Source: Pollenia angustigena
Taxonomy: Eukaryota; Arthropoda; Insecta; Diptera; Polleniidae
NCBI GenBank assembly: GCA_930367215.1
Contig: OV884058.1
Coordinates: forward strand, 219,522,208-219,586,207
Length of the DNA: 64,000 nucleotides
Reading direction: 5' to 3'
Made by a program: the position numbers and the translations under genes. The notes under the pieces were generated by a model, which saw only the letters and a list, made by a program, of their open reading frames with translations, had not been told where the DNA came from and searched no databases. Position 1 is the stretch's first letter, and every line of letters begins with the position of its first letter. Positions 1-62,312 of the stretch are shown here, in pieces.

Positions 1-700
1 GTTGTTTTTTTGAGTTTATCTTAAGGTAAGATTTTTAGATCTGATTAAGAGATAAAAATTTGCCGAAGAGAGACAAGCAATATATCGAATAGTTCACGAG
101 ATATAGACTTAAGAATCAGTACATGTGTTTTGAAAATTGAACTAAAATCCACCCCCAGTCGAAAACTTCAAACATGAATTAAAAAAAACCTTAGCTTATA
201 ATTTAAAACACAGCTAGGGTTTTTCTTCTGCCATCATAAGCTTTCAGATTTTGGGGGTCTCAATTGGTTCAAGATTATGAAGTTGGAAAATGTGCTACTG
301 TGTTATAAGACACCAACAGAATGTGTATAGATATACTTAATACATTTTATGTATTATTTCTTTTAATAAGTAATTTCTATTATATAAACCATTTTAATTT
401 TTCGAATGTGTTCAATGATATCAAATTATAATTTAATAAGCTTCAATGTTAAGCAAAGGTTTCCATAAACATAAATATGTGAACAAATGAAGGAATAAGG
501 CTATTACAAGGATGCTTTATAAATTGAAATTTGATTCATTGAACACATTCGAAAATAAAATTAGTTTATAATAAAAATAACTTTTAAAAAGAAATAATTC
601 TCATATGCTATTTACAATAATTTTATAAAAAAAAACTTACTAGAAAATAAAACATCTTTTTTTGTCTTAAATAACGTATCACTGCAAGTATATTTTCCAT
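1..700. repeat. AT-rich stretch with an imperfect hairpin MITE remnant
   Basis: No gene is visible. At about 370-418 and 534-590 lie inverted arms (tttttcgaatgtgttcaat on one side, its complement on the other) around a loop containing gaaggaataaggctattac. The same arm and loop words occur in the long hairpin at 31844-32127, so this is probably an older copy of that hairpin family. No target duplication was identified. Confidence 0.45.
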
Positions 701-828
701 TTTTTACTTTTTAGCTCATTTTAATAATTTATATTTAGCAATGCAAAGTGAAAAGTGAAAAGTGATAAGACAGAAATGCAAAGATGATTAAATCCTTTGT
801 GGAACACTTTGCAGATTCACTTTGCAAA

Positions 829-891
829 AGAGCGCAAAGACTTTGCAAGAGAGCGCAAAGACTTTGCAAAGAGAGCAAAGTCTTTGCAAAA
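829..891. repeat. Three 21-bp tandem units with a palindromic core
   Basis: Three consecutive units of about 21 bp each hold the near-palindrome gcaaagactttgc (third unit gcaaagtctttgc). Flanking sequence on both sides repeats the word gtgcaaagtgaaaagt. A 65-residue frame across this stretch is low-complexity repeat (FAKERKDFARERKDFAKRAK) and is not a gene. Confidence 0.6.
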
Positions 892-1344
892 ACTAGATAA
901 GTGCAAAGTGAGATTTGCAAAGAATGTTGTGGAACAGAAACACTTATCACTTTGCCAAAAAATGCAATTTGATAAGTGCAAAGTGAAAAGTTGATAAGTT
1001 GTTTTGTGGAATAGGGCCCAGGTATGTTATTTTATTCACATGGAATTCATGATACGAAATTAAAGTCCATGTGAATAAAAAATTTTATTCGGAAATTTTC
1101 ACATGTGGAATTCATGATAAGGGTGACTGTTATTAAATGTTCGTTAGTATGTGGACAACAAAAACGTTAAATAAAACGTAAATTTAGCCCGAGTTCGAGC
1201 CTCAGCTCAGCCAAGCATAAAAATTATCAATAAATTTTTATTAATTTCATGTTGTAAAATTCTTCCTTCTTTTTTATGAACAAGTGGGAAACTCTTAAAA
1301 CTTATATCACAAATTCGTACTCATACAGCGCTTATACTTTATAT

Positions 1345-1700
1345 TCACGGCGGCATGAAATAACCCCCCAAAGTGTGGGGCCTTATTTCATAATAATTGA
1401 AAATGAAATTAGCCCCCAACGAAATGAAATAACGCCCCAAATATAAATAAAATAATTCGGCGCTGCTAAATATGGCCCAAGGACATATGGCCCCAAAAAA
1501 TAAATGAAAATTGACCCCAAATTTGGGGATATTTTTCATAAGGCAATATGGCCCCATTTTTTTTTATTGAAAAATTACCCCAAAAAAAATTAAAAATAAC
1601 CCTAAAAATAAAATGAAATATGACCCGAAATTTGGGGTTATTCTTCATTATGAAAAATCACCTCAAAATTTATAATGAATTTGAACCCCAAAAAAGAACA
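1345..1700. repeat. Degenerate A/C-rich simple repeat
   Basis: Irregular reiterations of words such as gaaataaccccaaaattt are scattered over about 350 bp. Minus-strand reading frames here are rich in F, Y, G and P because of the repeat and have no domain. No unit boundary or terminal repeat could be fixed. Confidence 0.5.
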
Positions 1701-2044
1701 CAAAGAAAGTTACATTGAACATTTTCAGTGGAGTTCATATGCCCGAAACTAAAAATCACAAATTTAGAATCCCGATTTCAAAATCCGGATAATTATACAG
1801 TTTTGGTTTTAAAAATCGTACGATTGATAGCATAGTTGGGCTTTCGGCCATGCGCAAGGATTTTTTTCTCTATGGTATTACCAAAACTGGCTTCGCTAAC
1901 TAAAGCATCTCTGCAGAATAAAATTTGTGTCAAAATTTTTGGGTTGTTTTTTCATTTCTTAAATTTGCATTTTTTTATTAGTAGACGAAAAATAGCCCCA
2001 AAGTAAAAATTGTGATTTTATTTGAGGCCATTTTTCATTCCTTG

Positions 2045-2335
2045 ATATTCCAAAAAAATTGCACCCAAAAAAATTGATAATTTTGTTACAAAAACTAACA
2101 TAAATGGTTGAATAATGCAAGGAATGAAATAAGATTTTACACGAATTTGCAATTCACACTGTAAAATTTCGTGAAGATCGGTCCATAATTTAGCCTAGGC
2201 CCCATATAAACCCTTCTTCCGAAAACAGTTTAGTTCGACATCATAATAAAATTTTACGTCACAGATTTATAGGACAAGAATTCACACTGTAAAATTTCTT
2301 GAAAATCGGTCCATGATTTAACTATGTAGTACAAG
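2045..2335. repeat. Decayed fragment of the 153-bp repeat / mini-me-like family
   Basis: Words of the tandem block at 33500-34300 recur here: aaaaaattgataattttgtt, gaagatcggtccataattta, and gccccatataaaccc followed by gaaaacagtttag. Two partial units are recognisable. No ends are visible. The foldback at 2381-3740 begins just downstream. Confidence 0.5.
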
Positions 2336-2380
2336 AAAAAAAATTTTAATGAAACTAAACGCACATATGTAGGTACATAT

Positions 2381-3740
2381 GTACATTAGGGTGGCCGTTA
2401 TTTTCTTTTTTTTGATTTCTTATATTCTCCCCCCCCCCCCCAAATCGGTTCAGTTTTATGTAAAAAAAAATACAAAAAAATTTCGTAGCGATAAGTTGTG
2501 TTTTATGGGGGGCGTCGGCCCCTCAAAGTTTGCCATCAAGCCATTTATTCAAATGTAATTTGTTTGCATATGACTATCTCTTAAAAACAACATTTTACAA
2601 GAACATGGTATATGGCAATATTTTAGCTCTTCTAGTCAACAACATTAGCCTCGAAGAAAGTTTTTTGCTAAAATTAATATTTAAGAAAATAATTAAGAAA
2701 ATAACAACAAAATTCCAAACATTTTATATACGTTTTATATATATAAAAGAGGGATTTAATGTCAAGTGAACTAATTTTGAAATCGATGTCTTTCGATTTG
2801 GATGAAATTTTCACCAACGTTAGTCCTATTGAATAGTAGTTTAGACACAAATTTTCAACAAGATCGGTCAAAAAGTTTCTGAGTTTGGGGGGGTCAAAGT
2901 TAGAAATTTTGGCCATATAGGTGTTCTTTCACATCCATGTAACTTATTACCAATTGGGGTTAGCAAAATTTGTCCCAAGCAGCTTAGATAGCTATTTGAT
3001 CAATCTTTAAAAAAAAATTTTTTTTGTTTTTTTTGGAATATTTTAAAATTTTTTTTTTTAATTTACAACTTGGCAAAAAAAAAAAAAAAAAAAAGTTTTA
3101 AATATAAAAAAAATATGTTAAAAAATTTTTTAAAAAAACCAAAAAATTTTTTTTAAAAAGATTGATAATAAGTTACATGGATGTGAAAGAACACCTGTAT
3201 GGCCAAAATTTCAAACTTTGACCCTCCCAAACTCAGAAACTTTTTGACCGATCTTGTTGAAAATTTGTGTCTGAACTACTATTCAATGGGACTAACGGTG
3301 GTGCAAATTTCATCCAAATCGAAAGATTTCGATTTCAAAATTAGTTCACTTGACATTAAATCCCTCTTTTATATATATAAAACGTATATAAAATGTTTGG
3401 AATTTTGTTGTTATTTTCTTAATTATTTTTTTAAATATTAATTTTAGCAAAAAACTTTCTTCGAGGCTAATGTTGTTGACTAGAAGAGCTAAAATATTGC
3501 CATATACCATGTTCTTGTAAAATGTTGTTTTTAAGAGATAGTCATATGCAAACAAATTACATTTGAATAAATGGCTTGATGGCAAACTTTGAGGGGCCGA
3601 CGCCCCCCCTAAAACACAACTTATCGCTACGAAATTTTTTTGTATTTTTTTTTACATAAAACTGAACCGATTTGGGGGGGGAGAATATAAGAAATCAAAA
3701 AAAAAAGTTCTCCATACAACTAACGGCCACGCTAATGTAC
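2381..3740. mobile_element. 1.36 kb foldback element with arms of about 560 bp
   Basis: The first and last bases are complementary (gtacattagggtggccgtta against taacggccacgctaatgtac), and complementarity continues for over 500 bp into a poly(A)/poly(T)-rich centre around 2990-3160. Each arm therefore encodes a mirrored copy of the same small frames: an identical 79-residue frame at 2530-2769 (+) and 3346-3585 (-), and a nearly identical 80-residue frame at 2674-2916 (-) and 3199-3441 (+). These are inverted-repeat shadows, not genes. The C-tract at about 2430 is longer than the matching G-tract near 3672. No transposase is present, so the element would need help in trans. Confidence 0.8.
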
Positions 3741-4164
3741 ATACAAACAAACAGATCTTTAAAAGTACAGTAGTTCTGTTTGTAGGTACAATGTATTCTT
3801 GTTACTGTTGTTTTTATTGTTGTTAATTTTAACAAAGCATGAGAGTGGTTTATTGTTGTTATTGTTGTTAATGTTAACAAGCGTCTCATCGAGTGGACAA
3901 TGACTACTTGACTGCAAAAGTATAAGTATGTGTTCTTTTGAATTTACACTGTTGTGTTATATTGCGTGAGCAACAAAAATGCAAATAAAGCACTTTCAAT
4001 AAAAAACGAATAAATGCAAAAATCAAATGTGTACGAAACGATGTAAAAATTACCAACGTTGAACTTTGTTTTGCAAGCAAAGAGTGAATGTAAATTTTAG
4101 CGTATGAATAAATCAAGAAAAATTGTGATTTTGCAGTTCTCTGTTATAAACATCATATAAATTC

Positions 4165-4245
4165 CACTCCTGAAATATTCGAACTGTCGGTGGTGGGTAT
4201 CAAAGATTCGGCACAGTCGAATATAGCTTTCTTACTTGTCAATTA
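4165..4245. repeat. End fragment of a mini-me-like element
   Basis: The words gtatcaaagattcggcacag and cgaatatagc, followed by cttacttg, match the terminus of the copies at 4642, 31815 and 34445. Only this end is present. Confidence 0.55.
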
Positions 4246-4641
4246 ATATCCCCTTTAAAATTTAAAGCTCTTATATGGGTTCAGTTAATAGCAATTTACG
4301 ATATTTTTTTTTCAATTGTAATAAAATCTTTTTTATCTCCCCATAAAAATTACTGCAAATAACATTTTAACCTAAAAGAATTTCTTAAGAAAAATATTTT
4401 TAAATCTTAGTTTATTTAACTTAATTGTATGTTTTCATATGAACTTTAGTGTGAGTTGCTTATTTAGCACTTATCACTTAAAAATCCTAATCAAAACAAT
4501 TGAAAATCCCATTTGATATTTGTGTATATCCTTAACAATGTTAACACATTAAATTTCCGTTTTAAAAACATTAAGTACAACATGAGATTAGAGAAAGATA
4601 GAATAAACAAAATTTATTCTTTCTAGAGAAAAATAATAAAA

Positions 4642-5444
4642 AACAAGTCAGAGTGCTATATTCGGCTGTGCCGAATCTTTGATACCCTCCACCGACAGGG
4701 CGAATGTTTAAGGAGTAATATCTGTATGATGTTGTTATCTTAAACTGTGACGATTTGTTATTAATTATGGTTTTGGGCAACTAAACTGTTTTCCGGTAGT
4801 AGGGTTTATATGGGGCCTAGGGTAAATTATGGACCGATCATCACGAAATTTCACAGTGTTATTTCTAGTCCTAAAAAACTGTGATGTACCAAATTTTGTT
4901 ACGATAGCGCTATTTTTTACGGTTTTAGGCGTTCTAAACTGTTTTCCGGGAGTACTGTTTATATGGGGCTTAGGGTAAATTATCGATGGATCTTCACGAA
5001 ATTTAACAGCGTGATTTCCCGTACAATAAAACAAATTTTTGCGAAATCTGATCTCATTCGGTGCCTTGTTCCAGCATTTATGCTACTTTTTGTAACAAAA
5101 TTATCAATTTTTTTAGGTGGTGGTTCCATATTTTGATTCATAGCTCTGGTCCTACTGAACCGATTTTGCTGGATTTCAATCCCAAACTGCTTAGGATAAC
5201 TACAAGCAATTTGGCACCAAGTGATTGATAATTTCTTTTGAGTTGTTCGAAAGTGAGCGTGTTTTCAACAGACGGACAGCCGGACAGACAGACAGACGGA
5301 CATGGCTAAATCGAATTAGAATTACTCAAGGACCCTGAATATATATACTTTATGGGGTCTGAGATGAATAATAAAAAAGTTTCACACGGAATGACAAACT
5401 TAATATACCCTCTTCACAACTAATTGAGGTGGAGGGTATAAAAA
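4642..5444 (+). mobile_element. Mini-me-like element with (GTCY)n/(TA)n core and two 153-bp units
   Basis: It begins aacaagtcagagtgctatat, then cggctgtgccgaatc, and ends ggtggagggtataaaa. Near the right end is a cagacagacagacggacatg tract (the (GTCY)n block on the other strand) followed by atatatactttatggggtc, the microsatellite-core-microsatellite order described for dipteran mini-me elements. The left part holds two units of a repeat with period exactly 153 bp (ctaaactgttttccgg at 4781 and again at 4934). The copy at 33180-34445 is the same family in reverse with five units. No long ORF or reverse transcriptase is present. Confidence 0.7.
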
Positions 5445-21087: not shown

Positions 21088-21790
21088 AATTCTTGAAATA
21101 ATTAGTATTGTGGTTATTTTGTTGAACTATTTATGGTTTTTAATCCAAATTTTTAATATTTTAAATTAGGCTTAAGTTCATGAAATTTAATTTTTTATTA
21201 AATTATTTTTGTGAAGAAAGGAATTTTACAACATGAAAATTAATTAAAATTGTTATTGATAATCTTTCATTCTTGACGTGGCTCGGGCTCGAACCCTGGC
21301 CGGCAGGTTACCATGACATTTTTCGATCGCAACCACTCGATCTCCTCAGATGGATTTGCCGTCTTACACTCGCAGCCATCGACGACTGCTGACGTCACTA
21401 GTCAAACATCAATCCTTAAACCAAATTGTATTTTAACATTTGGTAGATCGAAATTTGCTTTCCTGAATGATTATCCACTTTAATTGATTTTACATGTTTT
21501 TTCCTTTACTTCTGTTTTTTCGTACTTTCGTCAAGAATTTTTCTTGAAGTCCAAGTACATTTTTTGTTTTTTCACTTTGTCTTTCTCTTTTTTGTTGACC
21601 TTTTTCAGCACAACTTGAAGGACAAATGTACACATAGAGCTCGTGCCTTAGCTTTAACAATAATTAGTATTGTGGTTATTTTGTTGAACTATTTATGGTT
21701 TTTAATCCAAATTTTTAATATTTTAAATTAGGCTTAAGTTCATGAAATTTAATTTTTTATTAAATTATTTTTGTGAAGAATTCTTGAAAT
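21088..21790 (-). mobile_element. Terminal-repeat retroelement with hammerhead ribozyme, copy 1
   Basis: Read on the minus strand the order is a 5'-truncated repeat R (21778-21661), an internal domain, then a full R (about 21260-21099). R contains words such as ccacaatactaatta, gttcaacaaaataacc and catgaacttaagcct. The copy is flanked by aattcttgaaat at 21088-21099 and 21779-21790, an 11-12 bp target duplication, longer than LTR integration makes but normal for target-primed insertion. The internal domain has a hammerhead fold (21301-21361) followed by a tRNA B-box-like GGTTCGAGCCC. No ORF of size is present. The layout matches the copy at 48921-49683. Penelope-like or retrozyme-like origin is inferred. 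Confidence 0.75.
21301..21361 (-). ncRNA. Candidate type I hammerhead ribozyme, copy 1
   Basis: Minus strand, 5' to 3': helix I outer CGGCA (21361-21357), loop, helix I inner CCAT (21353-21350), core CTGAGGA (21349-21343), helix II GATCG paired with CGATC (21342-21338 and 21329-21325), core GAAA (21324-21321), a minimal helix III, then the cleavage triplet GTC (21317-21315). ATGG (21314-21311) and TGCCG (21305-21301) close helix I. All invariant core positions are present. Helix III is weak here (AATG), so activity of this copy is doubtful. Confidence 0.65.
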
Positions 21791-21829
21791 AGTTTTCTGA
21801 AAGTTACAATTTATCTATAAGACTTAAAA

Positions 21830-32527: not shown

Positions 32528-33179
32528 TAAGTGTTTCATTTTCTGTTTAGGTTGTTGATAAAAAAGAGTGTTATAACATTAAACAATTTTGACCACCGCT
32601 GTCTCGAACAATTTATTTAAACGCACCACAAAATCGAAGTAGAGTGCGTATTACAAGTGGTGACGTCATCATTGTGCCAAATTTATTAAAGATCTGCACC
32701 ACGAAAAAAAAGCTTAAAACAAAAACTCGTTTTGCAAGCATTGCAGTGTGAGAGGTCAAAAGCTCCAACCCAAGAGAAGTGTGCAATTTAAGAATTTTTT
32801 TTTTTCTCTACGTACTTAATAATTATGCTTTTGGCGAATGTAACCCATAAAGATACCTTATTAACAATGTTATATTTTTCTACTATAATTTAAAAAATTA
32901 TATACAAAACTAAGTCCTACAAACAATTAACAATTTAAAGAATCCCTTAAATAATAATAACGTATTTAGTGTTATCCTAAAACTTTCACAAAAACATACA
33001 AAAAAACTATTACTATAATAACTATTCTAAACTTCTTAAATTTTCAAACATACACACAGAAAAAAATCAATGTAAATTCGTTCAAAACAAGGTTGATTTT
33101 ACATTTTTCAGTAGTGATTTTGCTTCATTGTTGTTTCATGTTAATTTAACATGATTTTACAATAACTTGCGAACAACAT

Positions 33180-34445
33180 TTTTATACCCTCCACCACAAT
33201 TAGTTGTGAAGAGGGTATATTAAGTTTGTCATTCCGTGTGAAACTTTTTTATTATTCATCTCAGACCCCATAAAGTATATATATTCTGGGTCCTTGAGTA
33301 ATTCTAAGTCGATTTAGCCATGTCCGTCTGTCTGTCCGTCTGTCCGTCTGTCCGTCTGTTGAAAACACGCTCACTTTCGAACAACTCAAAAGAAATGAAC
33401 AAACTTGGTGCCAAATTGCTTGTAGTTATCCTAAGCAGTTTGGGATTGAAATCCAGCAAAATCGGTTCAGTAGGACCAGAGCTATGAATCAAAATGTGGA
33501 ACCACCACCTAAAAAAATTGATAATTTTGTTACAAAAAATAACATAAATGCTGGAACAAGGCACGGAATGAGATAAGATTTTGCAAAAATTTGTTTTAGT
33601 TGACTGGAAATCACGCTGTTAAATTTCGTGATGATCCCGCCATAATTTACCCTAAGCCCCATATAAACAATACTCCCGGAAAACAGTTTAGTACGCCTAA
33701 AATCGTAAAAAATAACGCTAGCGTAACAAAATTTGGTACGTCACAGTTTTATAGAACTACAAATGACACTGTGAAATTTCGTGAAGATCGGTACATAATT
33801 TACCCTAGGCCCCATAGAAACCCTACTCCCGGAAAACAGTTAAGTCCGCCTAAAACCGTAAAAAATAATGCAATCATAACAAATTTTGGCTCGTCACAGT
33901 TTTGTAGGACTACAAATGATACTGGGAAATTTCGTGAAGAACGGTACATAATTTACCCTAGGGCCCATAGAAACCCTACTCCCGGAAAACAGTTTAGTAC
34001 GCCTAAAACCGTAAAAAATAATGCAATCATAACAAATTTTGGCTCGTCACAGTTTTGTACGACTGCAAATGATACTGGGAAATTTCGTGAAGATCGGTAC
34101 ATAATTTACCCTAGGGCCCATAGAAACCCTACTCCCGGAAAACATTTTAGTACACCTAACACCATAATTAGTTATGCTAGCATAACAGAAATTGGTACGT
34201 CACAGTTTTAAAGGACTTGAAATGACGCTGTGAAATTTCGTGATGATCGGTCCATAATTTACCCTAGGCCCCATACAAACCCTACTACCGGAAAACAGTT
34301 TAGTCGCCTAAAACCATAATAAATAACAAATCGTCACAGTTTAAGATAATAATAACATCATACAGATATTACTCCTTAAACATTCGAACTGTCGGTGGAG
34401 GGTATCAAAGATTCGGCACAGCCGAATATAGCACTCTAACTTGTT
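33180..34445 (-). mobile_element. Mini-me-like element with five 153-bp tandem units
   Basis: It begins ttataccctccaccacaatt and ends with the gattcggcacagccgaatat terminus. The (GTCY)n block gtccgtctgtctgtccgtct lies at about 33325 with the tatatattctgggtcc core upstream. Tandem units start at the gatgatc/gaagatc word at 33630, 33783, 33936, 34089 and 34242, a spacing of exactly 153 bp each time. It is possibly inserted into an older TA-flanked element with acacagaaaaa ends (about 33051 and 35744). Confidence 0.75.
33600..34300. repeat. 153-bp tandem repeat block
   Basis: Five units with period 153 bp (51 codons), so one frame stays open for 203 residues at 33600-34211 with repeated motifs such as IIYPRAHRNPTPGKQFSTP. 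The same unit occurs twice at 4765-5034 on the other strand. Openness follows from the period being a multiple of three. No start context, known domain or expression evidence supports a protein. Confidence 0.8.
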
Positions 34446-48850: not shown

Positions 48851-48920
48851 AGGACAACATTTTGTCATGACATAGTAGCTATCGTAAAAGTTATAAGTTA
48901 TAGTTGTTTTTTTGTTTAAA

Positions 48921-49683
48921 TAATTAGTATTGTGGTTATTTTGTTGAACTATTTATCAATAACAATTTTAATTAATTTTCATGTTGTAAAATTCCTTTCT
49001 TCATAAAAATAATTTAATGAAAATTAAATTTCATGAACTTAAGCCAAATTAAAAATATTAAAAAATTTGGATTAAAACCCATAAATAGTTCAACAAAATA
49101 ACCACAATACTAATTATTGTTAAAACTAAGGCACGAGCTCTATGTGTACATTTGTCCTTCAAGTTGTGCTGAAAAAGGTCAACAGAAAAAAGAAAGACAA
49201 GATGAAAGAACAAAAAAATGAACTTGGACCTCAAGAAAAATTCTTGACAAAAGTACGAAAAAACAGAAGTAAGGAAAAAACATGTAAAATCAATTAAAAT
49301 TGATAATCATTCAGGAAAGCAAATTTCGATCTACCAAATGTTAAAATACAATTTGGTTTAAGGATTGATGTTTGACTATTGACGTCAGCAGTGGTCGATG
49401 GCTGCGAGTGTAAGACGGCAAATCCATCTGAGGAGATCTAGTGGTTGCGATCGAAACATGTCATGGTAACCTGCCGGCCAGGGTTCGAGCCCCGGCCATG
49501 TCAAGAATGAAAGATTATCAATAACAATTTTAATTAATTTTCATGTTGTAAAATTCCTTTCTTCATAAAAATAATTTAATGAAAATTAAATTTCATGAAC
49601 TTAAGCCTAATTAAAAATATTAAAAAATTTGGATTAAAAACCATAAATAGTTCAACAAAATAACCACAATACTAATTATTGTT
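48921..49683 (+). mobile_element. Terminal-repeat retroelement with hammerhead ribozyme, copy 2
   Basis: The order is a 36-nt inverted tail (48921-48956, complement of 49081-49116), direct repeat R (48957-49122), internal domain (49123-49518), R again (49519-49683). The two R copies differ at only a few positions. The internal domain carries the hammerhead fold (49416-49476) and then GGTTCGAGCCCC. There is no ORF. Terminal direct repeats plus a short inverted tail are typical of Penelope-like elements, and a hammerhead is known from both Penelope-like elements and retrozymes. Unlike a normal LTR element there is no TG..CA end, primer site or polypurine tract. The monomer length (internal + R) is 561 bp. 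No clear target duplication at this copy. Confidence 0.75.
49416..49476 (+). ncRNA. Candidate type I hammerhead ribozyme, copy 2
   Basis: Helix I outer CGGCA (49416-49420) with TGCCG (49472-49476); helix I inner CCAT (49424-49427) with ATGG (49463-49466); core CTGAGGA (49428-49434); helix II GATC (49435-49438) with GATC (49449-49452) and a 10-nt loop; core GAAA (49453-49456); then CATGTC with cleavage expected after C49462. Helix III would be the palindrome ACATGT, too short to close within one molecule but able to pair between two, as in dimeric hammerheads. An outer stem, TTGACGT (about 49379) with ATGTCAA (about 49498), could enclose it. Confidence 0.7.
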
Positions 49684-49689
49684 GAAAAA

Positions 49690-50194: not shown

Positions 50195-50890
50195 GCCAAA
50201 GTTTATTTTCAAAAAAGTACCAAAAAATCGGTTCAGATGCAAAAAACTTATGGCCAAAATAAAATTTTTTTTAGTAAAATACCCATTTTCGGGAATCATA
50301 GATTTTCCCGAGTCCAAACTTTACAACTCAAGTAAATGGTAAATTTCTTCATTAACACGTCGGTATTTAAATCTTTCAAATCGGTTTAAAAATGGCTAAG
50401 TTATGATCAAAATACTGCAATCCCAAATATTATTTTTTTTATACCCTTCACCGAAGGTAAAAGGGTACACTCAAAATATTATGTAGTTAAATTCAAACGA
50501 AAATTCATTTGAAACAAATTAAAATTCATTTAAAAAACGGATCATTTACATTTCATTTAAAACAAATGATTTTTTCAATAATTTCTAAGTTTTTTGTTTA
50601 TTGAACATCATATTCGTTAAAATTGAATAGTTTTTACTTTTAAAAAATATATTTTAACCGATAAAAATCAAACAAATTAACAAAAAAAAATACGGAAAAC
50701 ATTATTTTTTGGTAGTTTGTTTTTTTAATAACAAACATAAATGTTGAAAAATAAATTTATTCGTAAAATAACTATATTTTTATTCAATTTTAACAGTACC
50801 GAAAACGAATTTAATAACCTACAATCAGTTACTGTAATAATTTTATGAGTGTATATATAACTTTGTCATTTTGAATTTTATGTTTCTAGG
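50195..50890 (-). mobile_element. Mini-me-like fragment split by a TA MITE
   Basis: The left part (gtaccaaaaaatcggttcag, ttacaactcaagtaaatggt) matches 30836-31000, and ttatacccttcaccgaaggt at about 50440 is the family terminus. After the insertion it resumes with tatatataactttgtcatt. Confidence 0.6.
50468..50851. mobile_element. TA-flanked MITE, 384 bp
   Basis: It begins cactcaaaatattatg and ends aataattttatgagtg (complementary with one or two mismatches). TA lies at 50466-50467 and 50852-50853; the interrupted mini-me-like sequence is rejoined when it is removed. Tc1/mariner-type target. No ORF. Confidence 0.75.
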
Positions 50891-52415
50891 TCCAATACTA
50901 ACGCAAATTCAAAAAGTACCAGTTAATGAACAAAAAAGTACCAAAAAGTTCCCTCATAGATTCTTATCCACTTAGGACATTGCATCTTGAATTTTATGTT
51001 TCTAGGTCTAATAATAACGGAAATTTAAAAAGTACCAGTTAAAAAAAAAGAAGCTCAGAAACGCGCTTTTACAGATTATCATTCACTCAAGACATTGCAT
51101 GTTCAATTTAATTTTTCTACGTCCAATGCTAACGGAAATTCAAAAAGTACTATTTAAAGATCAAAAAAGTACCTAAAAACGCTCTTACAGATTCTCATTC
51201 ACTCAGGACCTTGCATGTTTAATATCATGTTTCTAGGTCCAATACCAACGGAAATTCAAGCAGTACCAGTCAAAGAATAAAAAAGTACTAAAAAGTTCAC
51301 TCTTATAGATTTTCATCCACCCAGGACATTGCATTTTGAATTTTATGTTTCTAGGTCCAATGCTAACGGAAATTCAAAAAGTACCAGCTAAAGAACAAAA
51401 AAGTACCAAAAGCCCTCTTACAGATTCTCATTCACTCGGGACCTTGCATGTTTAATTTTATCTTTCTAGGTCCAATACCAACGGAAATTCAAGAAGTACC
51501 AGTCAAAGAATAAAAAAGTAACGAAAAGTTTACTCTTATAGATTTTCATCCAACCAGGACATTGCATTTTGAATTTTATGTTTCTAGGTCCAATACTAAC
51601 GGAAATTCAAAAAGTACCAGTTAAAGAACAAAAAAGTACCAAAAGCCTTCTTACAGATTCTCATTCACTCAGGACCTTGCATGTTTAATTTTATCTTTAT
51701 AGGGCCAATACCAATGGAAATTCAAAAAGTACCAGTCAAATAATAAAAAAGTACCAAAAAATTCACTCTTTTAGATTTTCATCCACCCAGGACATTGCAT
51801 TTTGAATTTTATGTTTCTAGGTCCAATACTAACGCAAATTCAAAAAGTACCAGTTAATGAACAAAAAAGTACCAAAAAGTTCCCTCATAGATTCTTATCC
51901 ACTTAGGACATTGCATCTTGAACTTTATGTTTCTAGGTCTAATAATAACGGAAATTTAAAAAGTACCAGAAAAAAAGAAGCTCAGAAATGCGCTTTTGCA
52001 GATTCTCATTCACTCAAAACATTGCATGTTTAATTTAATTTTTCTACGTCCAATGCTAACAGAAATTCAAAAAGTACTATTTAAAGATCAAAAAAGTACC
52101 TAAAAGCCCTCTTACAGATTCTCATTCACTCGGGACCTTGCATGTGTAATTTTATCTTTCTAGCTCCAATACCAACGGAAATTCAAGAAATACCAGTCAA
52201 AGAATAAAAAAGTACCAAAAAGTTCACTCTTATAGATTTTCATCCTCCCAGGACATTACATTTTGAATTTTATGTTTCTAGGTCCAATACTAACGCAAAC
52301 TCAAAAAATACCAGTTAATTAACAAAAAAGTACCAAAAAGTTCCCTCGTAGATTCTTATCCACTCAGGACATTGCATCTTAAATTTTATGTTTCTAGGTC
52401 CAATATTAACGATAA
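50885..52415. repeat. 116-bp satellite array with higher-order structure
   Basis: About 14 units with mean period near 116 bp, marked by ggtccaatactaacgg-type words at 50888, 51004, 51120, 51236, 51354, 51470, 51588, 51703, 51820, 51936, 52049, 52164, 52282 and 52398. Unit subtypes (A: ttaatgaacaaaaaagtacc; B: aaagaagctcagaaacgc; C: agtactatttaaagatc; D: gtcaaagaataaaaaagta; E: agctaaagaacaaaaaagta) appear as A-B-C-D-E-D-E-D-A-B-C-D-A. No ORF survives. Confidence 0.85.
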
Positions 52416-52419
52416 TTAA

Positions 52420-53070
52420 AAAAATGCCAGTTGTAGAACCAAAAAGCCAATGAAAAATATCAAATTTCCCGTATTTCCTTTTTTTGGTACTATTTTTCCC
52501 CCCACTAAAGTATCAACAAATTCAGTATTGTAGTGGGGGCTCATTATTAAGTACGAGTATGTTAATGAATGGAGAAAAATTTTTTGTAAAAAAAGTACCA
52601 AAAATAGCGACGATTTTCACCCCTTAAATGTTCGAATTTCGAAAAAGTACCAAACTTATATTAGTATTTTTTTTAATAGGTTTCGAATGTGGTATAAACT
52701 TTGTTTCTATGTTTATTGGTTCAAAAGATAGATGGGGTGTCAGAAAAGTACCAAAATTCAGGTTTTACCCGTTTACTCCCTAATAGGGCCAAATTTCAAA
52801 AAAGTACCAGACACATCCGCTTATTTTTCTAAAGAACAATGATCAGTGTTATATTTTTTTGTATCTCTTTTAGTTTTGGAGAAATAAGGTTACCGCATTT
52901 TCCCGTTTTTACCCTTTTTTACCCCCTAAACATTTGAATTTCCAAAAATCTCGTCTTAGTGGATCGATTTGGGGACTGACCAATCTCTGGTCCAAGTTTC
53001 AAGTGTTTAGCTTCAGGCGTTTAGGCTGTGCGATGATGAGTCAGTGAGTCAGTCAGTCAGTCAGTAACGT
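52420..53070. repeat. Unique flank of the satellite, ending in (GTCA)n
   Basis: It keeps the satellite words aaaagtaccaaa at irregular spacing and ends in gatgatgagtcagtgagtca, then further gtca units (53037-53066), before ttttatatat. A tetranucleotide tract next to a (TA) tract echoes the mini-me layout but with a different repeat. Confidence 0.5.
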
Positions 53071-60590: not shown

Positions 60591-60794
60591 AACAATTTAA
60601 AACGATAAAATTAAACAAAATAAAACAGTAAAAATATATATGTATGTATGTACGTATGAATGTTCATACATGTGTATACATATTCTGAACAAAACATTTA
60701 AATTCTGGTTTTTTCTTTTGTTGTTGTAAAATACAATAAATAATAAAAATATTAAAGCAAAGCAAAACGGTGAAAAACAAAAACAACTCTTTGC

Positions 60795-62312
60795 ATGAGT
60801 ACAAACAGTGAAACAACACTAAGACAAAATGAAAGAAACGTTTACGTTTTAGTTAATGCGAATGAAAATAATGAAGAAATAAATAAAACAAAACAAAACA
60901 ATATTAACTACCTAACGGCTAAGCCAATTACTCGAACACGTTCCCTCTCACCCTCGGTATTTACACAAACGGTGGATAGTGACTCATTAAAAAAACTACA
61001 ACAAGATTTGGTGACAAGTGTTGCCAGGCCAGCAAGTATTGCCGTGACGTCAAAAACAAATTTAGTGGGAAATGATACCATGAACTCAAACACAAATGCA
61101 ATGGAAAACCCCCCTGTAAAAAGTTGTCAAAAGCCTACAGTACAAGTTGGTATGGACAGGTACATAACAGTGCTTAAACGGGGACACAGCCCTACCTCTG
61201 CAGCAGTTGCTTCGGCCTCAAAAGTACCATCTTTTGATAAAATAAATACTCAAAATCGTTTTGCAATTCTGGAGGATGAATCCTCTGAAGCACCAAACGT
61301 CATTAAACCATCCAAGCCTCCCCCGATATATCTAAGGGAGCAAAATTCAAATGAGCTCATAAAGAGTTTGATATCGTTGATAGGTGAAAATTCGTTTTAC
61401 GTAGCGGCTATAAAGCGTGGAAGTATAAACGAGACAAAAATACAAGTCAATAATGAGAATGATTTTCGCAAAATAGTAAACAACTTCGAAACGCTTAAAA
61501 AAAACTTTTATACCTACCAACTGAAAAGCAGTAAAGGTCTACAGGTAGTGATTAAGGGTATTGACTCATGTGTGGACCCAGAAGAGGTTAAAACATTCCT
61601 AGAAGAAAAAGGCTTCAAGGTAAAACATGTAGTAAATATTAAAAATAGAGAAAAAATTCCCCAACCACTTTTTCGAGTGGAGTTTGAACCCGGCGACGTA
61701 AAACTTAAAAAAAACGAAATACATCCTATTTACAATTTAAAATATATTCTCTACAGAAGAATAACTATAGAAGAGCCACACAAAAAAAATGGACCTGTTC
61801 AGTGCTTAAACTGCCAAGAATTTGGCCATACCAAGGCATACTGCTACTTACCCCCTGTCTGCGTAGTATGTGGTGAACTACACGGTACCGTTTCTTGCGA
61901 TAAGTCTAAAACCGACCCCAACGTAAAAAAATGTAGCAACTGTGGCGGTAATCACACTGCCAATTATAGAGGATGCCCAGTATATAATATTGTCAAGCAG
62001 ACGGTTGGACCGAAAACAAATACCCCTCAAATGCAGGTTGCAAATCAGGTAAACACAAATGCAATTCAAGCCCCCCAGCCTAGTAATAACAGAACCTCTT
62101 ACGCTAACGTCCTAAAATCAAACCATCAGCCAATGCAAGGTGCCTCGCCAAGTAATGATGAAACTCCGGTTTCTAATTTAAGTCGTTTAGAAATAACCAT
62201 GGAAACATTAGTTCAAACAGTAAATAATTTTACGAACACAATGGGTAATATGATGCAGGAAATGCTTAGAATGCAATCGATGTTATTGCAAGCTGTACTT
62301 AACAAACCATGA
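60795..62312 (+). CDS. Jockey-type LINE ORF1 (Gag-like nucleic-acid binding protein)
   Basis: 505 residues. The N-terminal half is Asn/Thr/Ser-rich and of low complexity. The middle (about 195-330) resembles the pre-zinc-finger domain of Jockey/TART/HeT-A Gag proteins (EEVKTFLEEKGFKVKHVVNI, then NREKIPQPLFRVEF). Three CCHC-type knuckles follow: C337-C340-H345-C350, C356-C359-H363-C368 and C380-C383-H387-C394. The C-terminus has a short Met-rich helix (LETLVQTVNNFTNTMG region). Such proteins coat the LINE RNA and, in Drosophila relatives, enter the nucleus. The start is the first ATG in an open frame. The stop codon overlaps the ORF2 start. Intact over its full length. Confidence 0.9.
   Translation: MSTNSETTLRQNERNVYVLVNANENNEEINKTKQNNINYLTAKPITRTRSLSPSVFTQTVDSDSLKKLQQDLVTSVARPASIAVTSKTNLVGNDTMNSNTNAMENPPVKSCQKPTVQVGMDRYITVLKRGHSPTSAAVASASKVPSFDKINTQNRFAILEDESSEAPNVIKPSKPPPIYLREQNSNELIKSLISLIGENSFYVAAIKRGSINETKIQVNNENDFRKIVNNFETLKKNFYTYQLKSSKGLQVVIKGIDSCVDPEEVKTFLEEKGFKVKHVVNIKNREKIPQPLFRVEFEPGDVKLKKNEIHPIYNLKYILYRRITIEEPHKKNGPVQCLNCQEFGHTKAYCYLPPVCVVCGELHGTVSCDKSKTDPNVKKCSNCGGNHTANYRGCPVYNIVKQTVGPKTNTPQMQVANQVNTNAIQAPQPSNNRTSYANVLKSNHQPMQGASPSNDETPVSNLSRLEITMETLVQTVNNFTNTMGNMMQEMLRMQSMLLQAVLNKP

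Follow-up and report, generated by a model that had tools for sequence, protein, structure and literature searches.

We found that a 64,000-nucleotide stretch of the Pollenia angustigena genome (the window) holds two copies of a short non-coding tandem element that carries a type I hammerhead ribozyme motif. Copies of this element end as Penelope retrotransposons do, which suggests which enzyme copies it. We consider it likely that this is a retrozyme-like, non-autonomous element served in trans by a Penelope enzyme, and that it moves by way of a self-cleaved, probably circular RNA.

The first-pass annotation had reported hammerhead folds at 49416–49476 (+) and 21301–21361 (−). Both are genuine type I hammerheads, with CUGANGA, GAAA and NUH joined to the helices in type I order. 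In the plus copy, which is a whole minimal type I hammerhead, the core CTGAGGA lies at 49428–49434; GAAA (49453–49456), helix III (CATG, 49457–49460) and the triplet GTC (49460–49462) together span 49453–49462, and cleavage is predicted after C49462. Outer helix I pairs CGGCA (49416–49420) with TGCCG (49472–49476), and inner helix I pairs CCAT (49424–49427) with ATGG (49463–49466). Helix II is formed by GATC at 49435–49438 and GATC at 49449–49452 around a 10-nt loop, TAGTGGTTGC, and this hairpin is also tRNA D-arm-like. The core of the minus copy stands at the equivalent places within 21315–21349 (−). The core, helices I and II and the cleavage position had thus been placed correctly; helix III, which is just the 4-nt palindrome CATG, was absent from that description. 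The two hammerheads differ at 2 of 61 motif bases, one in loop II at position 49439, the other at 49457, adjoining GAAA, where AATG replaces CATG in the minus copy and breaks its helix III. Because the copies differ at just these two bases, an unchanged core, taken alone, says little. A loose core pattern has a chance expectation of 0.24 per window; for the core with helices I and II, the outer helix and a short helix III the figure is about 0.0013 (21 simulated cases), and for the exact minimal geometry about 0.0001 (2 simulated cases); a strict hammerhead pattern had no match in 60 Mb of simulated sequence.

The deciding evidence for the hammerhead is the other copies in the genome (1.37 Gb in 31 contigs), not the window pair. 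One sample consisted of 47 regions of a single contig (C1) around core matches, and is thus core-selected and biased; with anchors placed outside the core, the core was intact in 87 of its 90 copies. A second sample comprised 30 loci found through unit sequence that lies upstream of the ribozyme. These were not selected by ribozyme, and they are the closest relatives of the window copy and thus young; the core was intact in 64 of their 65 copies. Copies with identical 250-base surroundings were merged in these counts, so that identical tandem units count once. The possibility raised in the first-pass annotation that most copies carry core mutations is thus falsified in the copies examined, and so is the possibility that compensatory substitutions are absent, as changes were found in both helix I and helix II.

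These changes define two main subfamilies, the window type with CCAT/ATGG and GATC/GATC, and a type named after locus L009 with CCCT/AGGG and GATT/AATC. We parsed 156 of 157 copies (the window plus copy is present twice), and the parsing itself required most of the core. The third inner pair of helix I, A-U in the window type and C-G in the L009 type, was C-G in 79 parsed copies, A-U in 75 and A/G in 2; the fourth helix II pair was U-A in 80, C-G in 73, C/A in 2 and U/C in 1. Two copies mix helix I of one subfamily with helix II of the other. Helix III was CATG in 152 of the 156, and the cleavage position held C in 151 and A in 5, both of which are allowed. Genome-wide, exact patterns for the fourth helix II pair gave 15,269 C-G, 7,586 T-A and 67 broken C/A matches. 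An earlier estimate of copy number from our first pattern (8,086 matches; reversed control 1,054) was replaced by these later patterns, since the first required at least 4 bases before GTC where the motif has 3, and so found mainly the L009-type subfamily. Elsewhere there were no hits, either in viral contigs or in prokaryote contigs.

The covariation analysis took an alignment of 36 of 45 distinct hammerheads; the other nine differ, by eye, only in loops or outside the counted helices. Pairing was present in 95.7% of cells across the 36 distinct sequences, versus 19–40% (maximum 40.4%) with the partner slid. Cells with both-sided changes numbered 26 versus 11.0 on shuffling, and the covariation score was 0.211 versus 0.099, both above all 500 shuffles. 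The number of pairs with a both-sided change (2 versus 2.1) and the number of further pair types (5 versus 6.1) were not above shuffling. The covariation rests on two subfamilies, and so on few events, one or two changes per pair. The separate helix combinations and the near absence of broken forms nevertheless argue for selection on the paired state, and the predicted hammerhead is supported by compensatory changes in both helices together with intact cores.

Covariance models caught little of this. No Rfam family reached its gathering score anywhere in the window. On 70 bases of the plus copy Hammerhead_1 was the best of 4,227 Rfam families and its alignment was right, but its 16.1 bits (E 0.1) fell short of the gathering score of 34. 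On 141 bases of that copy mascRNA (18.3 bits) outscored Hammerhead_1 (16.3 bits, in an alignment that uses an improbably long helix III), both far under threshold. Neither the minus copy nor an L009-type copy drew a hammerhead match from Rfam. The model check proposed in the first-pass annotation thus told in part against the hammerhead, with a sub-threshold match in the plus copy but none at gathering score and none in the minus or L009-type copies. The exact C-G and T-A matches together put this hammerhead family above 22,000 units; every tested copy falls below the Rfam thresholds, so that annotation by those models would miss it.

Folding did not single out the hammerhead. The minimum-energy fold of either window copy is not the hammerhead (−16.4 versus −10.7 kcal/mol for the hammerhead-constrained fold in the plus copy, −17.3 versus −13.6 kcal/mol in the minus copy), fold z-scores of the hammerhead region were ordinary, with stability no greater than that of shuffled sequence, and the hammerhead did not appear when the two copies were cofolded. 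We rejected the minimum-energy fold as a refutation of the ribozyme, as plant retrozyme hammerheads are described, in one account, in a blocked conformation (PMC4918200).

Measured between successive cleavage sites, the non-coding unit of the element is 562–567 nt long (567 in L009, 562 in the window), and insertions consist of about 0.5 to 13.5 tandem units. There is one type I hammerhead in each short non-coding tandem unit, as in a retrozyme. The window copies have a GC content of 28–29%, no stop-to-stop frame longer than 86 aa, and no reverse transcriptase or GIY-YIG endonuclease. The plus copy consists of a truncated first unit at 48953–49125 (+), mapping from unit position 59 and forming the 5′ direct repeat (pseudo-LTR); the remainder of the unit at 49126–49514 (+), which has the hammerhead at its 3′ side and lacks a long frame; and the 3′ direct repeat at 49515–49687 (+), with a mapped end at unit position 227. 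An inverted copy of the 3′ tail, 38 bp long (about unit 184–221), precedes it at 48919–48956 (−) in a head-to-head, Penelope-type 5′ junction, so that the whole is an inverted tail joined to about 1.3 units. The second copy, at 21097–21780 (−), runs from unit position 101 to the unit end and on to 221. An old 5′-truncated relative at 1187–1273 (+) is 81% identical over 88 columns to the stretch that follows the hammerhead, and its ribozyme is unrecognisable.

This structure does not bear out an LTR-like reading of the terminal repeats described earlier. The direct repeats arise where a partial tandem copy overhangs, the copies end in the Penelope manner, and in place of bounding LTRs and 4–6-bp target-site repeats we found repeat starts that vary and target-site repeats mostly of 9–15 bp. 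A MITE with inverted ends was also rejected for the plus copy, as the 38-bp inverted piece is the unit's own tail.

Several other repeats lie in the window. Just downstream of the plus copy is a satellite at 50867–52446, with 13.6 copies of a 116-bp unit and a higher order of 233 bp. Between 44045 and 47803, two 443-bp direct repeats that are 99.5% identical flank a SAP domain, a zinc knuckle and pieces of protease and integrase; two frames tested there gave no reverse transcriptase match, and the whole is probably a young, internally deleted LTR retrotransposon. An inverted repeat of about 1.37 kb at 2378–3743 is 87.6% identical to its own reverse complement and forms a large foldback. A 153-bp tandem repeat with an open frame over 203 aa occurs at 33608–34326 and 4758–5444, and 33179–33868 is 93% similar to 5444–4758 in the opposite direction. 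An open, X-element-like ORF1 with a PRE_C2HC domain, whose named relatives occur in moth and Drosophila, spans 60774–62312. For one window ORF the named relatives, among the 120 of 257 relatives listed, are from a moth (Eumeta) and Drosophila.

Elsewhere in the genome the unit forms long arrays. L009 has 13 ribozymes in a row, mostly 567 bp apart, and the arrays at L010, L011 and L013 run outward both ways from a common centre. In two young arrays the units differ by 0.29% (11 units) and 0.0% (4 units), and these arrays are at least 1.07% diverged from any other locus; a single L029 unit that was 36–41% from all others in this comparison is a misassigned stretch. Such near-identical units fit one RNA circle that may have been copied several times round. 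Separate loci can be as alike as units within arrays (0.27% between L013 and L014) and older arrays reach 1.9% internally, so homogeneity does not prove circles.

To see how insertions begin and end, we mapped the ends at 49 loci, comprising 47 fetched loci and the two window copies. Their 3′ ends clustered: 43 of 75 fell at unit 214–230 and 15 at 170–199, with 17 elsewhere. About 39 nt separate the two clusters (181 and 220). The outer cluster is in an AC-rich stretch, which holds the ends of most copies and is presumably where reverse transcription starts. In the plus copy this stretch, at 49651–49686 (+), folds as UUCAACAA..UUGUUGAA with an 8-bp stem (z −2.39). The three other window-copy repeats folded gave weaker, different folds, and a conserved AC-rich stem-loop was set aside, the stem being present in 1 of the four repeats. 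The 5′ starts were scattered, occupying all 12 bins of 50 nt. A suggestion from the first three copies that 5′ ends mark the cleavage site was refuted by these unit-wide starts. Of the junctions at the 49 loci, 22 were head-to-head and none was tail-to-tail.

Target-site repeats of at least 9 bp flanked 22 of the 49 insertions, against a mean of 2.42 (maximum 7) in 200 shuffles of the flanks. Many are AT-rich, some are of low complexity, and they are mostly 9–15 bp long where found. The remaining 27 insertions, the window plus copy included, have no repeat of 9 bp, and the plus-copy flanks match at best at 8 of 9 positions. The second copy is bounded by TATTTCAAGAATT (element strand) on its right at 21088–21100 (−), 13 bp of which up to 6 could be element, and on its left at 21779–21791 (−). 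Two-arm arrays lie inside a single pair of target-site repeats at L013 (14 bp), L020 (14 bp) and L052 (15 bp); the 3.5-kb head-to-head array of L013 has AATTTCCATGATCC at both flanks. The insertions therefore bear the traits of Penelope-type insertion: their 3′ ends fall preferentially at two sites 30–40 nt apart, they are truncated at the 5′ side and carry inverted 5′ pieces, and they show target-site repeats.

Penelope-like elements are present in the same genome, which has at least 19 places with GIY-YIG. Six of these (L086–L091) were fetched, and L086, L087 and L088 are Penelope-like, with GIY-YIG in L086 and L088 (Pfam) and the reverse transcriptase motif YVDD in L087 (by eye). L086 repeats in tandem about every 2,565 bp, with the core CTGAAGA..GAAA..GTT in each repeat; a separate short tandem repeat (about 159 bp) lies inside its positions 1–4501, at 1714–2269. 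The repeats of all three loci carry a hammerhead-like core in which helix II starts one base late. Rfam did not call the Penelope-copy cores hammerhead, and their hammerhead sequence is unlike that of the non-coding element. L087 and L088 end 113 and 155 nt past the core start, 42 nt apart. The tail of L088, the one Penelope copy compared, showed no significant likeness to the element's: 251 of 1000 shuffles were as good and other parts of the unit scored higher. In L089 (minus strand, 449 of the reverse complement) a Penelope-type hammerhead-like core reads AAAA in place of GAAA, and L090 and L091 (1.2 kb each) have no hammerhead-like core.

Together, we have computed here a covarying hammerhead, a tandem unit, Penelope-type ends, multi-unit arrays in one pair of target-site repeats, and Penelopes in the genome; transcription, cleavage, circularisation and the identity of the enzyme are what we infer. 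Cleavage after C49462, at the equivalent position of every unit, would divide tandem transcripts into unit-length RNA, which would probably be closed into circles by a host ligase. As the element is non-coding, it must rely on an enzyme supplied in trans. This would be a Penelope-like reverse transcriptase/GIY-YIG endonuclease that starts within the AC-rich stretch, about 214–230 nt (or about 181 nt) past the cleavage site, primes at an AT-rich target and follows the template, or circles it, over anything from half a unit to many units. Arrays made in this way would have preferred 3′ ends but scattered 5′ ends, and would show target-site repeats and inverted 5′ pieces joined head to head. With a helix III as small as CATG, cleavage probably depends on a dimer or a protein, and the predicted ribozyme most likely works in one of these two ways; for minimal Penelope hammerheads, protein help (PMC11167929) and dimers (PMC7761336) are reported in individual accounts. 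We tentatively extend this to animal retrozymes at large, with doubt slightly outweighing belief: Penelope enzymes may mobilise them from a hammerhead RNA circle, of about 565 nt here, by rolling-circle reverse transcription that places up to 13 units, often in head-to-head arms, in each insertion.

An alternative that we think unlikely is that the hammerhead fold serves the Penelope protein as a signal for binding or folding, as one element in how that protein recognises its template, and is not a self-cleaver, with arrays arising from uncut tandem transcripts. The minimal helix III and the competing stable fold would suit a signal, as would 5′ ends of copies that are scattered and not at the cleavage site, and for PAc of Anolis one account gives no ribozyme cleavage without protein and insertion of ribozyme mutants nonetheless (PMC11167929). 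However, the catalytic bases outside helices I and II (CTGAGGA, GAAA and UH) are kept in nearly all copies examined, and the cleavage base is an allowed C or A throughout the 156 parsed copies. Because parsing demanded most of the core, it is the 64 of 65 copies in the second sample that carry weight against a signal.

We find it very improbable that the element is a tRNA-derived SINE whose head looks like a hammerhead by chance. A T-arm-like hairpin with a B-box-like GGTTCGAGCCC at 49479–49495 (+) follows the D-arm-like helix II in the right order, an arrangement matched by 0 of 500 shuffles in the plus copy and 3 of 500 in the minus copy. When 3,196 segments of the window were compared with 20 tRNA genes, the plus copy also came out best, and mascRNA outscored Hammerhead_1 on its longer stretch. 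On the other side, the box A/B statistics are ordinary (0.28 per window expected by chance), ARAGORN found no tRNA, the relative at 1187 has no significant tRNA likeness, and the 5′ ends of copies are not clustered at the tRNA-like head. Nor does tRNA likeness account for CTGAGGA, GAAA, helix I or the covariation. The copies thus do not show the tRNA-like 5′ head of such a SINE, which is disfavoured. Likewise disfavoured, and scarcely credible, is a satellite DNA with a hammerhead, spread by unequal crossing-over or extrachromosomal DNA circles without reverse transcription. The regular tandem arrays of homogeneous units would fit it, but short insertions make up many of the 49 loci, and their target-site repeats, head-to-head inversions and preferred 3′ ends are not what crossing-over is expected to produce.

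The retrozyme-like element has counterparts among known systems. Retrozyme-like repeats in insects receive a one-sentence mention in one paper (PMC7229834), so the kind is already known; what is new is the link to Penelope-type ends. Among the titles listed in a search of open-licence PubMed Central, none was on this element or on a similar dipteran hammerhead retroelement. In one review, Penelope/Terminon elements are named as no more than likely candidates for moving animal retrozymes (PMC7761336); with Penelope-type ends in dozens of retrozyme-like copies, the question of mobilisation becomes directly testable with one genome.

The metazoan non-LTR retrozymes, in the account of Cervera and de la Pena (2020; PMC7229834), share with this element non-coding tandem units with one type I hammerhead each, a low GC content, target-site repeats longer than 4 bp and the lack of LTRs. 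Their units are given as about 170–400 nt, versus 562–567 nt here, which lies outside that size range; the element here also has a minimal hammerhead, documented Penelope-type ends and a tRNA-like stretch adjoining the ribozyme. Penelope elements with pseudo-LTR hammerheads, as portrayed in PMC6155905, PMC7761336, PMC3846280 and PMC11167929, have in common with it the minimal type I hammerhead, partial tandems, head-to-head 5′ pieces, an optional tail of 30–40 nt (about 39 here), an AC-rich 3′ end and AT-rich targets. In these accounts Penelope forms partial tandems with pseudo-LTRs, an inverted 5′ pLTR and target-site repeats of 8–10 bp (PMC3846280), and an AC-rich stem-loop holds two reverse-transcription start sites with the optional 30–40-bp tail between them (PMC11167929). 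Unlike Penelope, the element here has no reverse transcriptase or endonuclease frame, its unit is about 565 bp against the 2,565-bp period of L086, and many of its target-site repeats are longer than 8–10 bp. Schistosome Sm-alpha is likewise described (PMC2770079, PMC4918200, PMC8490949) as short, non-coding and high-copy, with a type I hammerhead and tRNA-like sequence, whereas the element here resembles a tRNA just in part, over sequence shared with helix II, and its clear feature is that its ends are of Penelope type. Plant LTR retrozymes, according to one account (PMC4918200), are also non-autonomous hammerhead elements with a presumed circular RNA route, but have a type III hammerhead, LTRs and 4-bp target-site repeats, none of which occurs here. 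On this comparison the element probably functions in the manner of a metazoan retrozyme, and its insertion follows the Penelope pattern; it is neither an autonomous Penelope, nor an LTR retrozyme, nor a demonstrated SINE.
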